Under the pieces are notes generated by a model. That model searched no databases. It was not told the origin of the DNA and saw nothing but the letters and a program-made list of their open reading frames with translations. This document shows positions 13,117-38,433 of a stretch of 64,000 bases of DNA, piece after piece; within the stretch, counting starts at the first letter, position 1, and each line of letters begins with the position of its first letter. This DNA is from Gottfriedia acidiceleris (lineage in GTDB: Bacteria > Bacillota > Bacilli > Bacillales > Bacillaceae_G), in the NCBI RefSeq assembly GCF_023115465.1, contig NZ_CP096034.1, positions 1,116,001-1,180,000 of the forward strand. The letters run 5' to 3'. The translations under genes and the position numbers were made by a program.

Positions 13117-14085
13117 ATGGACAAGTCCTCAAAGATATCAATTAAAATTAATGGCGAGGAAAAAGCGTTTGAAGAAGGTGCCGTGACTTCTCAAAATCAA
13201 GTAGAGGAGAAGGACGGGGAATTTGGATGGGTTTTACCGACTCCTGATGGATTAGGGAAAAAAGTAATCGTTTTAGATGATGTTAAAAAGAAGAAGAAGA
13301 TTAAGCCGGAGCAAAAGGTGAAGGAGAAAAAGAAGATTTCTTTTTTCGCAAAGAAGTCACCTTCGAAAAGTATTATTATTTCGATTATAGGTGCAAGTTT
13401 AATAGGACTATGTTTTGGGTTTGTATTTTTAGGGATATTTAAACAATCAAAGCCAGATGCACTTAACCCAACTAAAAATAGTGTATCGGTTTCTGGTACA
13501 GCATCGAATCTAGTACAAATGCAGATTCCAGCAGTGAAGTTTGATCTGGCACAAGTTGGAATGTATAAAAGTATGGAATCAGCTAAGAAAAATGTAAAAG
13601 AAGTATCTACAAACGGCTTTACCCCTGTCATTTATGAAAAAAATAATAATTTTTTCGTCGTTATTGCTTTGAGTGGGAAAGATAGCACATTTCTAGCAGA
13701 TGAAGTTAAGAAAAAATTTAAAAGTACTTATTTAAAAGAAGAAACAGTTGGTGGGCAAGTATACAAAGGCCCAAAACAATCAGTAGATATGTATAAAGCT
13801 GAAGTTGAAATATTTAATTTTATGTTATCGTATTTAACTGATGAAAACTTTAATAATGAAAAACAACTTGAACAAATAAGCTCAACGATGTTAATTCTGA
13901 GTAAACAAAAAGATTATATTAAAAATAAGCAATTACTAAGCGGACTTAAGCATTTACAAAATATCGAAAAAGTAATGTCCTCAAGCAGTAAGCAAAGTCT
14001 AAATAAAGTAACCCAATCAGTCCAATATGACATGTTATCCTTATTTAAAATATTAAAAGAACAAAAAAATACACTAACAAATTAA
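13117..14085 (+). CDS. spoIIB: Stage II sporulation protein SpoIIB-like, SPOR domain
   Basis: Septal sporulation protein that, in B. subtilis, localises to the polar septum and helps SpoIIM/D/P recruitment and engulfment. The 322 residues start MDKSSKISIKINGEE, as in SpoIIB. A charged cytoplasmic part precedes one membrane helix (about 89-112, IIISIIGASLIGLCFGFVF), then an external SPOR-like segment (about 148-190, VKFDLAQVGMYKSMESAKK). The ATG follows TAGGAGG. The gene lies between folC and maf as expected. comC, which follows spoIIB in B. subtilis, is absent. Confidence 0.87.
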   Translation: MDKSSKISIKINGEEKAFEEGAVTSQNQVEEKDGEFGWVLPTPDGLGKKVIVLDDVKKKKKIKPEQKVKEKKKISFFAKKSPSKSIIISIIGASLIGLCFGFVFLGIFKQSKPDALNPTKNSVSVSGTASNLVQMQIPAVKFDLAQVGMYKSMESAKKNVKEVSTNGFTPVIYEKNNNFFVVIALSGKDSTFLADEVKKKFKSTYLKEETVGGQVYKGPKQSVDMYKAEVEIFNFMLSYLTDENFNNEKQLEQISSTMLILSKQKDYIKNKQLLSGLKHLQNIEKVMSSSSKQSLNKVTQSVQYDMLSLFKILKEQKNTLTN

Positions 14086-14103
14086 ACTTTGTTGGTGTAT
14101 TTA
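14067..14103 (+). terminator. spoIIB terminator hairpin (left copy of a duplicated hairpin)
   Basis: Arms AATACACTAACAAA / TTTGTTGGTGTATT include the spoIIB stop codon in the loop region. A near-identical hairpin recurs at 14601-14634 on the other side of the repeat element. Confidence 0.7.
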
Positions 14104-14106
14104 CGT

Positions 14107-14595
14107 TGTTGAAAAACAACCTTGTCAATTAATTATCAAATTTTCGTAAAAGGAGTAGAGTGATGTTGATTTCCATTACAGGATGCTCGCTTTCCATGGG
14201 GCGAGATTCTTTAGCCTCCTCAGCAAGCCTGCGGGGTCTCAGCCTTCCCGCTAATCCCATAGGAGTCGAGCATCCCTCCATTCCAATCAACTTATTCATC
14301 AAAAAATGTCTGCGATAAACCCTAATCAAATAGCCTTTACTTAGATTAATCTAACTTTAATCAGATTGTAGATCAATTAATATAGAACCAGTTATTAAAC
14401 TAAACAATCGAATTTGTTTTCCTAAAAATAGCTCATAATATTTTTAACTTCTAAAAAAATCAATTCTATTGTTATTGAAATAATAAAATTGCTCAAACAT
14501 ATTAACATTTAAAATCATTCAAAGAATGCTAATTTTATCATTATAAATGTTCATTTAAAGTCCGTTTTCCCTATTGACGTCTTTATATTTCAACA
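14107..14595 (+). repeat. Terminator-associated dispersed element, copy 1
   Basis: A 489-bp non-coding element with terminal inverted repeats TGTTGAAA (14107) and TTTCAACA (14588-14595). It contains a GC-rich palindromic core at 14165-14291 whose outer arms are GTTGATT/AATCAAC and GGATGCTCG/CGAGCATCC. The rest is AT-rich. It is about 90% alike to copies at 22452 and 37891. A 55-bp sequence (14068-14122), comprising the spoIIB terminator plus the first 16 bases of the element, recurs at 14601-14655 with two mismatches. No transposase is encoded. Confidence 0.9.
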
Positions 14596-14655
14596 ACGTA
14601 AATACACTAACAAACTAAACTATGTTGGTGTATTTACGTTGTTGAAAAACAACCT

Positions 14656-22413: not shown

Positions 22414-22445
22414 AAAAAAATGGTCTCAACGTGAGGCCATTTTTT
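22414..22445 (+). terminator. Intrinsic terminator after spoIVFAB
   Basis: Arms AAAAAATGGTCTCA / TGAGGCCATTTTTT (one G-U pair) around a three-base loop. The 3' arm plus T tract (22431-22446) is repeated at 22947-22962, beyond the dispersed element. Confidence 0.9.
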
Positions 22446-22451
22446 ACATGC

Positions 22452-22946
22452 TGTTGAAAAATTACCTTGTCAATTAATTATCAAATTTTCGTAAAAGGAG
22501 TAGAGTGATGTTGATTTCCATTACAGGATGCTCGCTTTCCATGGGGCGAGATTCTTTAGCCTCCTCGGCAAGCCTGCGGGGTCTCAGCCTTCCCGCTTAT
22601 CCCATAGGAGTCGAGCATCCCTCCATTCCAATCAACTTATTCATCAAAAAATGTCTGAGATAAACCCTAATCAAAAAGCCTTTACTTAGAGTAATATAAG
22701 TTTAATCAGATTGTAGATCAATTAATATTGAACATTTATTAAATTAAACAATCGAATTTGTTTTCTAAAAAAAGCTCATAATATTTTTAACTTCTAAAAA
22801 AATCATTTCTATTGAAATAATGAAATTGGTCAAACATACTAACAGTTAAAACCATTAAAAGGATTATAAAAAAATGCTAATTTTATCATTATCTAATGTT
22901 CAATTAAAGTCCGTTATCCCTAGACGATTTTATATTTTAACACTCT
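22452..22946 (+). repeat. Terminator-associated dispersed element, copy 2
   Basis: A 495-bp element closely matching copies 1 and 3. Its left end is TGTTGAAA, its right end TTTTAACA plus CTCT, and the GC-rich palindromic core is at 22510-22636. It directly follows the spoIVFB terminator in the same orientation as the other copies. A 16-bp piece of that terminator (GTGAGGCCATTTTTTA) recurs immediately after the element. Several small indels in the AT-rich right half suggest it is older than copy 3. Confidence 0.9.
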
Positions 22947-22983
22947 GTGAGGCCATTTTTTAATTAATTTTATTCAATTCTTA

Positions 22984-34371: not shown

Positions 34372-36819
34372 GTGAGAATTCACATAGTAATAAAGGGCGA
34401 TACCCTTAAGAGCATTGCTCAAAAATATAACATCGACTATGAAGAGATAGTTAAATTAAATGCCCAACTAAGTAATCCAGATATGATCTATCCTGGCATG
34501 AAAATAAAAGTGCCAGAAAGGGGAGAAAAACCAGCCCCATTAGGTTCTAAAAAGGAGGTACAGCTACCTAAAGAACCTAAGCCAAGTGTTGCTTTGGAGG
34601 TAGAAGAAGGAAATGTTCAACCTGTAGCTCAGACACAACCTACTGTCTTACCGAATACAAAGCCAGTTGATAATAATTTGAATATTAATGTAGAGGTTAC
34701 ACCGACAGTAAAACCTGTAATTCAGGTACCTATTCCACCTGCGAAACCGACTGTATCACCTGCGACAAATAATGCGAATCAACAAGTATCTCCTGTTCAA
34801 ACTGGAAAACCAAATGCGAACATACCGCAAGTTGTTTCGCCAGTGGCAGTTAAAAATCCGATAAATGATAATAAATCAAATGTGAACACCAAGGGAGGAC
34901 AAAGCATGTCAGAGAAAAAGAACTACTTCCCAGGATCATTAGTTTCTCCGTCAACACCAAATCCGCAAGTATCTCCAGCGGAAACAGGAAAACCAAATCA
35001 ACAAGTATCGCCAGTATCAACAGGAAAACCAAATCAACAAGTATCACCGATATCAACAGGAAAACCAAATATGCAAGTATCACCAGTATCAACTGGAAAA
35101 CCAAATGTGCAAGTATCCCCAGTTTCAACTGGAAAAGGGAAAGAGCAAGTCTTACCAGTAGCAACAGGAAAACCAAATATGCAAGTATCACCGATATCAA
35201 CAGGAAAACCAAATATGCAAGTATCACCAGTATCAACAGGAAAGCCGAATATGCAAGTATCACCAATATCAACAGGGAAACCAAATATGCAAGTGTCACC
35301 AGTATCAACAGGAAAACCAAATATGCAAGTGTCACCGGTATCAACAGGAAAACCAAATATGCAAGTATCGCCAGCGGAAACAGGAAAACCAAATGCACAA
35401 GTATCACCAGTAGCTACAAATAAAGCTCAAACATTACCAGCATATATGGGACCAAATGCACCACAAACATTGCCAGCATATATGGGACCAAATGCACCAC
35501 AAACACTTCCAGCATACTCAGGACCGAATGTACCGCAAACATTACCAGCGTATATGGGACCAAATCCAAACGCAGCCCAAACATTACCAGCATATATGGG
35601 ACCAAATGAAAACTACCCACAAACGCTACCAGCATATATGGGACCAAATCCAAACGCAGCCCAAACGCTACCAGCATATATGGGACCAAATCCAAATGCA
35701 GCCCAAACATTACCAGCATATATGGGACCAAATGAAAACTACCCACAAACAATGCCGGCATATATGGGACCAAACGCAAACTTCCCACAAACAATGCCAG
35801 CATATATGGGACCAAACGCAAACTTCCCACAAACATTACCAGCATATATGGGACCAAATGCTGGTTACCCATACTATCCACGAGGAGAAGGAGGAGCATT
35901 ACCAACATTACCGAGTTTTGGAGCTATGCCGATGTTGCCAGGATTAACTGGAGAAGCACCAGGAGCGACTGGAGGAGCACCAGTTCCGCCAACTGCGATG
36001 CCAACTCCATTACCAGCACCAATGCCAGGAAATACTGGGCAAACAATGCCATCGTATATGGGACCGAATCCAAATACAGGCCAAACATTACCGTCATATA
36101 TGGGACCGAATCCAAATACAGGCCAAACATTACCGTCATATATGGGACCGAATCCAAATGTAGCTCAAACATTACCGGCATACATGGGACCGAACGGAAA
36201 CTTCCCACAAACATTACCAGCATATATGGGACCAAATGAAAACTTCCCAGCAACAATGCCGGCATATATGGGACCAAATGAAAACTTCCCAGCAACATTA
36301 CCAGCATATATGGGACCAAATGAAAACTTCCCAGCAACATTACCAGCATATATGGGACCAAACGCAAACTTCCCAGCAACATTACCAGCATATATGGGGC
36401 CAAATGAAAACTTCCCAGCAACACTACCAGCATATATGGGGCCAAACGCAAACTTCCCAGCAACATTACCAGCATATATGGGACCAAACGCAAACTTCCC
36501 ACAAACATTGCCAGCATATATGGGACCAAACGCAAACTTCCCAGCAACAATGCCAGCATATATGGGACCAAACGCAAACTTCCCACAAACATTGCCGGCG
36601 TATATGGGACCAAATGAAAATTTCCCACAGACATTGCCAGCTATGGATTATCCAAAGTTCCAAGGCGGACCAGTTGTTTCACCGTATGCTACTGGACCGA
36701 CACCGATGTATCGTGATGCATCAGAACCTTATTTTGATCCAAATTCGCAATTATTTACTCCTTATGCACAAAATCAGTCTTCATATGGAGTGCCATATTT
36801 CGAGGAAGATGAACAATAA
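34372..36819 (+). CDS. safA: SafA coat/cortex morphogenetic protein, greatly repeat-expanded
   Basis: LysM protein at the cortex-coat interface; in B. subtilis it organises the inner coat and binds SpoVID. This version has 815 residues against about 387 in B. subtilis. Layout: N-terminal LysM (1-50, VIKGDTLKSIAQKYNIDYEE), Pro-rich linker, 13 tandem 12-residue units like MQVSPVSTGKPN (198-353), 11 TLPAYMGPN units (354-496), a Gly/Ala/Pro spacer, 14 more 14-residue units (558-753) and a C-terminal Tyr-containing tail. The GTG start follows GGAGGGG. An internal in-frame ATG at 34906 has its own binding site. Confidence 0.93.
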   Translation: MRIHIVIKGDTLKSIAQKYNIDYEEIVKLNAQLSNPDMIYPGMKIKVPERGEKPAPLGSKKEVQLPKEPKPSVALEVEEGNVQPVAQTQPTVLPNTKPVDNNLNINVEVTPTVKPVIQVPIPPAKPTVSPATNNANQQVSPVQTGKPNANIPQVVSPVAVKNPINDNKSNVNTKGGQSMSEKKNYFPGSLVSPSTPNPQVSPAETGKPNQQVSPVSTGKPNQQVSPISTGKPNMQVSPVSTGKPNVQVSPVSTGKGKEQVLPVATGKPNMQVSPISTGKPNMQVSPVSTGKPNMQVSPISTGKPNMQVSPVSTGKPNMQVSPVSTGKPNMQVSPAETGKPNAQVSPVATNKAQTLPAYMGPNAPQTLPAYMGPNAPQTLPAYSGPNVPQTLPAYMGPNPNAAQTLPAYMGPNENYPQTLPAYMGPNPNAAQTLPAYMGPNPNAAQTLPAYMGPNENYPQTMPAYMGPNANFPQTMPAYMGPNANFPQTLPAYMGPNAGYPYYPRGEGGALPTLPSFGAMPMLPGLTGEAPGATGGAPVPPTAMPTPLPAPMPGNTGQTMPSYMGPNPNTGQTLPSYMGPNPNTGQTLPSYMGPNPNVAQTLPAYMGPNGNFPQTLPAYMGPNENFPATMPAYMGPNENFPATLPAYMGPNENFPATLPAYMGPNANFPATLPAYMGPNENFPATLPAYMGPNANFPATLPAYMGPNANFPQTLPAYMGPNANFPATMPAYMGPNANFPQTLPAYMGPNENFPQTLPAMDYPKFQGGPVVSPYATGPTPMYRDASEPYFDPNSQLFTPYAQNQSSYGVPYFEEDEQ
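34893..34908 (+). promoter_or_regulatory. Internal ribosome binding site and ATG within safA
   Basis: GGGAGG, seven bases, then ATG 34906 (codon 179, MSEKKNYFPGSL) in frame with safA. It would give a 637-residue form without the LysM domain. B. subtilis SafA makes a comparable short form from an internal start. Confidence 0.75.
34963..35430 (+). repeat. Thirteen 36-bp in-frame repeats in safA
   Basis: Units encode variants of xQVSPxxTGKPN; copies differ by single changes (V/I, AE/VS). The array is contiguous and ends exactly where the next repeat type begins. Confidence 0.93.
35431..35859 (+). repeat. First TLPAYMGPN repeat block in safA (11 units)
   Basis: Three 36-bp units, then seven 42-bp units and a partial one. 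Each encodes T-L/M-P-A-Y-M/S-G-P-N with a variable tail (APQ, PNAAQ, ENYPQ, ANFPQ). Confidence 0.93.
36043..36630 (+). repeat. Second TLPAYMGPN repeat block in safA (14 units)
   Basis: Fourteen uninterrupted 42-bp units. The first three have PSYMGPN; later ones alternate ENFPA/ANFPQ tails, suggesting recent unequal exchange. Confidence 0.95.
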
Positions 36820-37063: not shown

Positions 37064-37837
37064 TTGAATAAAAAAGGTCTTATCGTTGCTACAGGTACGG
37101 TGCTAACAGTTTTAACATTATCTGCTTGTGGAACAAACAATAATGCTATGAATGACCATAAAAGAAATGTTGGTTATGAAAAAGTAAACTTCAATAGACC
37201 GACAAACCCTTATGCTGTTAATGATCGTTATGAAAACGTAAACTATCCTAATAACCAAGATTATTTCGCAAAGAAAAATAATCACTACGGAAATGATCGT
37301 ATAAATGAAGGTTTGAGTAGTGAGTATTCTAATGATGGCGTTATCCATGACGGAACATATGGAAGAAATGTCAACAATATGAATAGAAACTACACGATGG
37401 ATCAAGTTCGTTATAATAATGATTTAAATACAGCTCCTCTTGTACCATATACAAATATTAGTACAAATACTAATATGAATGCTGGTGAACGAAAGTTTGC
37501 TGACCAAATTTCTAAACGAGTAGAACAAATGTCAAATGTAGCCAAGGCAAACACGGTAGCTGTTGGTGATCAGGTTCTTGTTGCAGTAGATTTAGTAAAT
37601 AAAAATGTTGATGAAAGCGCATTTAGATCTAAAATCAAAGACGCTTTATCACCATACACGAGTGGTAAAAAAGTATATGTAACATTTGATGGAACGATTA
37701 GAAATAATTTAAATAACATTACAAATAATGTTCCAAATGCCACTAAAAATGTATTATACGATACAAAAGAAAATGTTAAACATATGTATCGAAATGTAAA
37801 AAATGATGTTAAGGATGCAACTAATCCAAACCGATAA
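37064..37837 (+). CDS. coxA: YhcN/YlaJ-family sporulation lipoprotein, CoxA-like
   Basis: Probable spore cortex/forespore lipoprotein. The 257 residues have a signal peptide with lipobox LSAC (VLTVLTLSACGTNN), an N/Y-rich linker (25-145) and a C-terminal YhcN/YlaJ domain (about 145-220, ADQISKRVEQMSNVAKANT). Its position just after safA and before bofC matches coxA of B. subtilis. The start is TTG with a strong GGGAGGG site. The name rests mainly on synteny and family; another YhcN paralogue is possible. Confidence 0.8.
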   Translation: MNKKGLIVATGTVLTVLTLSACGTNNNAMNDHKRNVGYEKVNFNRPTNPYAVNDRYENVNYPNNQDYFAKKNNHYGNDRINEGLSSEYSNDGVIHDGTYGRNVNNMNRNYTMDQVRYNNDLNTAPLVPYTNISTNTNMNAGERKFADQISKRVEQMSNVAKANTVAVGDQVLVAVDLVNKNVDESAFRSKIKDALSPYTSGKKVYVTFDGTIRNNLNNITNNVPNATKNVLYDTKENVKHMYRNVKNDVKDATNPNR

Positions 37838-37854
37838 ATATCAATTTTTACATT

Positions 37855-37886
37855 AAAAAGGAAGAAGCTCTTGCTTCTTCCTTTTC
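37855..37886 (+). terminator. coxA terminator hairpin (left copy of a duplicated hairpin)
   Basis: Arms AAAAGGAAGAAGC / GCTTCTTCCTTTT with loop TCTT. The exact 30-bp sequence recurs at 38395-38424 beyond repeat copy 3. Confidence 0.85.
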
Positions 37887-37890
37887 ATGC

Positions 37891-38394
37891 TGTTGAAAAA
37901 CTACCTTGTCAATTAATTATCAAATTTTCGTGAAAGGAGTAGAGTGATGTTGATTTCCATTACAGGATGCTCGCTTTCCATGGGGCGAGATTCTTTAGCC
38001 TCCTCGGCAAGCCTGTGGGGTCTCAGCCTTCCCGCTTATCCCATAGGAGTCGAGCATCCCTCCATTCCAATCAACTTATTCATCTAAAAATGTCTGCAAT
38101 AAACCCTAATCAAATAGCCTTTCCTTAGAGTAATCTAACTTTAATCAGATTGTAGATCAATTAATATTGAACATTTATTAAACTAAACAATCGAATTTGT
38201 TTTCTAAAAAAAGCTTATAATATTTTTAACGTCTAAAAAAATCATTTCTATTGTTATTGAAATAATGAAATTGCTCAAACATATTAACATTTAAAATCAT
38301 TAAAAAATCATTCAAAAAATGCTAATTTTATCATTATTAAATGTTCATTTAAAGTCCGTTTTCCCTATTGACGTCTTTATATTTCAACACTCTG
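37891..38394 (+). repeat. Terminator-associated dispersed element, copy 3
   Basis: A 504-bp element with ends TGTTGAAA (37891) and TTTCAACA followed by CTCTG. The palindromic GC-rich core is at 37949-38075. It is flanked by an exact 30-bp direct repeat of the coxA terminator (37856-37885 and 38395-38424), which reads as a target-site duplication. No ORF codes for a mobility enzyme. The orientation relative to the upstream gene is the same as in the other two copies. Confidence 0.92.
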
Positions 38395-38433
38395 AAAAGG
38401 AAGAAGCTCTTGCTTCTTCCTTTTCAGAGTGTT
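38386..38433 (+). terminator. Duplicated terminator forming a long perfect palindrome after copy 3
   Basis: The right copy of the coxA terminator is extended on both sides (AACACTCTG / CAGAGTGTT) to give 22-base perfect arms with a TCTT loop. It would terminate anything transcribed out of the element, but there is little T run. Confidence 0.75.

Follow-up and report, generated by a model that had tools for sequence, protein, structure and literature searches.

A terminator hairpin of Gottfriedia acidiceleris occurs twice, in identical form, with a short noncoding element between the two copies. How does an element come to be bracketed by a whole hairpin, and what kind of element is it? We examined this locus in a window of 64,000 nucleotides (the whole stretch of DNA analysed), in the rest of the genome, in congeners and across the Bacillales.

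The locus, one of three in the window, is a 509-bp element (copy 3) that starts with CATGCTGTTGAAAAA and ends with TATTTCAACACTCTG; an intrinsic terminator, the 30-bp hairpin AAAAGGAAGAAGCTCTTGCTTCTTCCTTTT, flanks it on both sides (Table 1). The first-pass annotation had seen this exact 30-bp terminator repeat, as we do, and had given the element a size of 504 bp, which is 5 bp too short. The 8-bp terminal inverted repeats that it described (TGTTGAAA/TTTCAACA) are present but form only the core of a longer imperfect repeat (CATGCTGTTGAAA / CAGAGTGTTGAAA), the terminal repeats being inverted, imperfect and 13 bp long. Its name for the upstream gene, coxA, fits loosely, as the gene (37064-37837) encodes a YhcN/YlaJ-type spore protein. 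No ORF of at least 60 aa was found in copy 3, in agreement with the proposal that the element is non-autonomous, and when the element was searched against Rfam, nothing, introns included, reached the gathering cut-offs; the matches below them were microRNA-like and fell on the element's hairpin. All or part of the terminator is also recreated downstream of copies 1 and 2, as had been noted: the two hairpins of copy 1 differ by 2 mismatches, and copy 2 has a remnant on its right. The suggestion that termination would be kept on both sides agrees with the predicted folds for copies 1 and 3 but not with that for the right side of copy 2. A palindromic match between the right end of copy 3 and the sequence past its right hairpin (AACACTCTG / CAGAGTGTT) was considered as the remnant of a second insertion and rejected; congeners already have (ag)agtgtt there, so the match is mostly older flank. 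Elsewhere in the window, positions 34372-36819 encode a LysM-domain protein with long in-frame tandem repeats of 36 and 42 nt.

Table 1. Positions of the element copies, their flanking hairpins and nested elements (window coordinates unless marked G000)
Feature	Position	Strand	Basis or remark
Copy 1	14103..14599	+	sequence
Left stem-loop of copy 1	14067..14102	+	sequence, fold
Right stem-loop of copy 1	14600..14635	+	next comes another short piece of the element's left end
Copy 2	22447..22947	+	sequence
Left stem-loop of copy 2, full	22414..22445	+	sequence, fold
Right stem-loop remnant of copy 2 (3' arm only; 5' arm and loop missing)	22948..22961	+	sequence, fold
Copy 3, 509-bp non-autonomous element (very probably a MITE of an IS1182-family IS)	37886..38394	+	sequence; 45 copies in own genome
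Left stem-loop of copy 3, terminator of the YhcN/YlaJ-family gene	37856..37885	+	one copy at congener empty site
Right stem-loop of copy 3, target-site duplication, 30 bp exact	38395..38424	+	sequence, fold
Left terminal repeat of copy 3, CATGCTGTTGAAAAA	37886..37900	+	as left end of autonomous G011 IS except T/C at position 3
Right terminal repeat of copy 3, CAGAGTGTTGAAATA on - strand	38380..38394	-	first 13 bp identical to G011 IS right end
GC-rich hairpin core of copy 3 (GTTGATT...AATCAAC)	37949..38075	+	homologous repeat in 25/45 sampled genera; fold z = -3.1
GGCAAGCC site in core	38006..38013	+	insertion point of nested elements in other copies; empty in window copies
Second IS, copies L044-L048, L052	G000 about 1742647-1744841, 4086225-4088441, 1957219-1959420, 1858533-1860745, 4266362-4268568, 179700-181907

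Duplicated hairpins in the genome and the choice of target

Searching the genome, a single contig of 4.69 Mb, yielded 45 matches to the element, about 40 of them full or long, a collection from which strongly decayed copies may be missing; identity to copy 3 reaches 97-99% in some of them. Long forms located by their end patterns were added to the search matches, and 45 copies had flanks that could be compared. In 44 of these the hairpin, complete or in part, stands on either side; the sole exception (L034) has lost its left end. When the two flanks of a copy are aligned with each other, scores range from 14 to 38, L034 excepted; mismatched pairs score 7.1 on average and 18.5 at most, a maximum that 40 of the 45 true pairs exceed. 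Of 44 copies, 32 have a perfect stem of at least 7 bp beside the left end and 34 have one beside the right end, as against 16 of 399 control stretches. The centre of the duplication lies no more than 1 bp from the dyad of the hairpin in 32 of 39 readable copies, whereas randomly placed duplications of the same lengths gave a rate of 0.11 (binomial tail 4e-24); the remaining seven are more than 1 bp off-centre, for some of which decay accounts. On the flank scores and the dyad centring, the earlier judgement that the association is not due to chance is well founded.

Whole duplications in this genome measure 19-39 bp, and their length follows that of the stem-loop (r = 0.83). In many copies (L008, L013, L024, L025, L026, L030, L031, L036, L038 and L040) the limits of the duplication coincide with the feet of the perfect stem; in L010, L016 and L029 the duplication ends up to 5 bp within a longer stem, and the term "foot" is thus approximate. 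Three arrangements were observed besides. Tandem arrays of hairpin-element-hairpin-element-hairpin occur at L023/L042 and at L047, where a new copy has landed on a hairpin that was duplicated before. At L036 the element ends in TTTCATCCAATT, which is exactly complementary to the flank past the right hairpin (AATTGGATGAAA), as if this end had been rewritten by inverted-repeat template switching. At L049 (195-1711; G000 about 3349795-3351310), a gene for an EamA-type transporter lies between the two ends of the element, and the duplicated hairpin lies outside them; this may be a case of gene capture or transport like that of TnSha1.

Most of the target hairpins are intrinsic terminators. Of the 29 sites with long flanks, 28 adjoin at least one gene 3' end, and A/T tracts are present at 32/39 hairpins; most copies neither lie away from terminators nor lack the flanking duplication. 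The claim that the element targets intrinsic terminators is correct in that it inserts there and the hairpin is recreated, but AT-rich hairpins that do not resemble terminators also serve as targets and are likewise duplicated (L015, AAATAAACTAAAGTTTATTT; L021). Likewise, the constant orientation behind the upstream gene described for the three window copies is real there but does not extend to the genome, where 11 of 29 copies lie between convergent genes, 7 in the arrangement > >, 10 in the arrangement < < and 1 between divergent genes. Because AT-rich hairpins are used and orientation is mixed, it is more likely that the recognised feature is the stem-loop rather than the terminator as such. 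It is also possible that the transposase reads a process associated with terminators, RNA polymerase paused there, and not the hairpin DNA. The proximity of nearly all copies to gene ends and the frequency of A/T tracts would fit this explanation, which we nevertheless regard as improbable: orientation relative to transcription is mixed, the AT-rich non-terminator hairpins and one divergent site were used, and the targets of the related IS1272 include a hairpin in a coding region (PMC4923244). We infer instead that the target hairpin is read as folded DNA. Terminators would then be the main targets as the commonest strong hairpins between genes, and insertion at a terminator would leave a terminator on each side and do little harm.

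Probable IS1182-family partners and nested elements

A partner for the element was sought across the genus with an IS1182 transposase model. One congener, G011, has an intact IS1182-family IS (L111/L185) of 1536 bp (CACGCTGTTGAAAAA...TTTTTCAACACTCTG) with an open transposase frame of 492 codons that scores 290.8 bits against NF033551 (cut-off 270); it lies between two copies of AAAAGACATTGTAGTTCACAATGTCTTTT, a duplicated hairpin with a 12-bp stem. A broken copy of an IS with the same ends is present in G002. The left end CACGCTGTTGAAAAA and the right end TTTCAACACTCTG of the G011 IS are common to the 509-bp element, and in both the hairpin is duplicated; the IS differs in carrying a transposase frame and in its interior, which is unrelated to that of the element and has no GC-rich core. 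The likeness extends past the terminal 15 bp on the left (0/1000 shuffles as good) but is not significant past the terminal 13 bp on the right (162/1000 shuffles). The element is not an orphan kind, as its termini are those of IS1182-family ISs.

Hairpin duplication is not confined to this genus. An order-wide search of 249 genomes with the G011 transposase led to 30 IS1182 loci, and in 25 of these (15 genomes, 13 genera) the IS is flanked by an exact direct repeat of a hairpin, 17-42 bp long; the others are cut by contig ends or have no exact repeat. Of these 25 repeats, 23 have their centre no more than 1 bp from the dyad. The termini of the loci share CAGNNTGTNGANAAA. At the right end of the 509-bp element (CAGAGTGTTGAAATA) the match to this sequence is complete, save for one base missing from the final A run, and at the left end it is nearly complete. 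Duplication of a whole hairpin, with the length set by the hairpin, thus appears to be a general property of such elements in the Bacillales.

The element has the features of a MITE: it is short, has no transposase gene, bears inverted terminal repeats, shares its ends with an autonomous IS, makes a target duplication of the type seen on the G011 IS and on 24 further IS1182 loci and, for copies 1, 2 and 3, has empty sites with a single terminator. No matching transposase was found in the same genome. The best match there to the transposase of the G011 IS, none being intact, is a 30%-identity pseudogene with other ends, and the only further candidate is an IS1182 of a different type. The pseudogene (L070) was rejected as the autonomous partner, its ends belonging to another IS1182 type. 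As no intact match was found although some copies are 97-99% identical to copy 3, the mobilising enzyme has probably been lost from this genome, diverged greatly or gone unrecognised. A MITE can outlive its partner, and a matching transposase in the same genome is not obligatory.

The IS1182 of different type, a second IS of 1687 bp with ends GAGGCCACTGAAAAA and a 496-codon frame (369 bits against NF033551), could itself be the mobiliser, having entered the core, with the resulting 2.2-kb composites as the autonomous form. All six intact copies do lie within the 509-bp element; each interrupts the core at GGCAAGCC, some in one orientation and some in the other, and theirs is the sole intact IS1182 transposase found in the genome. 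Against this, the IS copies differ by only 0-8 of 1687 bases, whereas the shells that carry them differ by 4-16%, which together with the two orientations indicates that the IS entered the shells separately. Its ends are unlike those of the shell; between its transposase and the one encoded by the G011 IS, which bears the shell's termini, identity is only 19% over 165 aa; and it has a small MITE of its own (about 150-200 bp) at the same core site in L024, L038 and L040. We consider this explanation unlikely, a little more so than that of the paused polymerase, and the nested 496-aa IS1182 was rejected as the element's own transposase. The near-identical IS copies in diverged shells point to repeated insertion into one hairpin. 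Here one mobile element uses the hairpin of another as its landing site.

Repeats with about 75-89% identity to the 127-bp core occur in many Bacillales genera (25 of 45 sampled), in line with the earlier remark on a Bacillaceae repeat with a similar GC-rich core. It is not the core that ties the element to terminators, because core-only copies of this GC-rich repeat, which is not known to have a formal name, mostly have no duplicated hairpin within 600 bp; those in several congeners have none. The core is also dispensable: L051 (282 bp) and L060 are without it, and L051 retains an exact 38-bp hairpin duplication. In G038, from another genus of the order, two of three core copies have a duplicated hairpin; these two (L179 and L180) lie between duplicated terminator-like hairpins and have ends that are not clearly IS1182-like.

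Empty sites in congeners

A single terminator occupies the copy 3 site in congeners and the copy 2 site in G003, G005, G006, G007, G010 and G012, and a single hairpin the copy 1 site in G005 and G011. The copy 2 terminator of G011 and the copy 1 site of G006, G007, G008 and G012 contain elements in the opposite orientation, which arose by separate insertion into those hairpins. Full-length copies in G005, G006, G007, G010 and G012 have the same flanking hairpins and are more decayed. It could be argued that the two hairpins pre-existed as tandem terminators and that the element landed between them, or that one arose later by gene conversion; inverted-repeat correction does seem to be active at some ends, such as the right end of L036. 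We give these explanations very little weight, since sites empty of copies 1, 2 and 3 have one hairpin and not two, and the duplicated hairpin differs from copy to copy in about 40 copies.

Proposed mechanism and relation to known systems

Sequence comparison shows termini shared with an IS1182-family IS, a stem-loop target, duplication from about foot to foot and empty sites with a single hairpin. The length of the target duplication is normally almost constant for a DDE transposase, and the variable, dyad-centred duplications seen here would not result from a transposase with a fixed stagger acting on linear DNA. We consider it highly likely that the element is a MITE derived from an IS of the IS1182 family and that the transposase of this IS attacks a hairpin or cruciform at its two feet, the length of the duplication being set by the size of the hairpin. 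The DDE transposase, supplied in trans, would recognise the extruded structure; in an extruded cruciform the two feet would be adjacent at any stem length, and the duplication would follow the hairpin (17-42 bp). A group IIC intron-like retroelement or another RNA-based element inserting at terminators is the least credible alternative, as group IIC introns choose terminators but here neither intron RNA structure nor a reverse transcriptase is apparent (no Rfam family at gathering cut-offs, no ORF in copy 3), and inverted terminal repeats of DDE-IS type are accompanied by a target duplication, which to our knowledge group II introns do not make. IS200/IS605 or REP elements would have a Y1 transposase, hairpin ends and no duplication; here a duplication and DDE-IS-type ends are found.

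Targeting of hairpins has precedents in the family. Furi et al. (2016; PMC4923244) described insertion of IS1272/TnSha1, of the IS1182 family in Staphylococcus, into terminator hairpins with deletion and no duplication, and cite Siguier et al. for some IS1182 members that target palindromes. IS1272/TnSha1 resembles the element in its transposase family, in using hairpins without sequence consensus, several of them terminators, and in inserting in both orientations (PMC4923244, PMC5678879), but it replaces or deletes the stem-loop without target duplication, whereas the 509-bp element duplicates the whole stem-loop and is left with a hairpin on both sides. Wan et al. (2017; PMC5678879) drew whole-hairpin duplication as "pathway b", the alternative to the stem-loop replacement seen with IS1272; the mechanism proposed here is that pathway. 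Reports on REP/BIME-targeting ISs and ISPpu9-like elements (PMC1525189, PMC8450116) describe a palindromic DNA target, as here, but one of a particular repeated sequence, and not any strong stem-loop. In the literature covered, we found hairpin targeting by IS1272 but whole-hairpin duplication never demonstrated; ISfinder and subscription reviews were outside this scope, and priority is uncertain. Hairpin targeting by the IS1182 family is known; duplication of the whole hairpin, with a length set by the hairpin, is a well-supported and apparently new variation on it.

In summary, the dependence of duplication length on the hairpin suggests that the transposase attacks folded DNA, either a cruciform or a hairpin, and about 45 copies of the element together with 25 full ISs with mapped junctions provide material for testing this geometry. 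The element is the mirror image, within one family, of IS1272, which removes the hairpin. We think it probable, with less confidence than for the element itself, that a widespread Bacillales branch of IS1182 and its MITEs transpose in this structure-guided way, with a duplication of 17-42 bp set by the hairpin, copying the terminator and insulating the element on both sides. Such behaviour would account for the repeated paired terminators encountered in annotating Bacillaceae genomes, and, since the insertions fall behind genes and restore the terminator, would explain how a genome tolerates such repeats.
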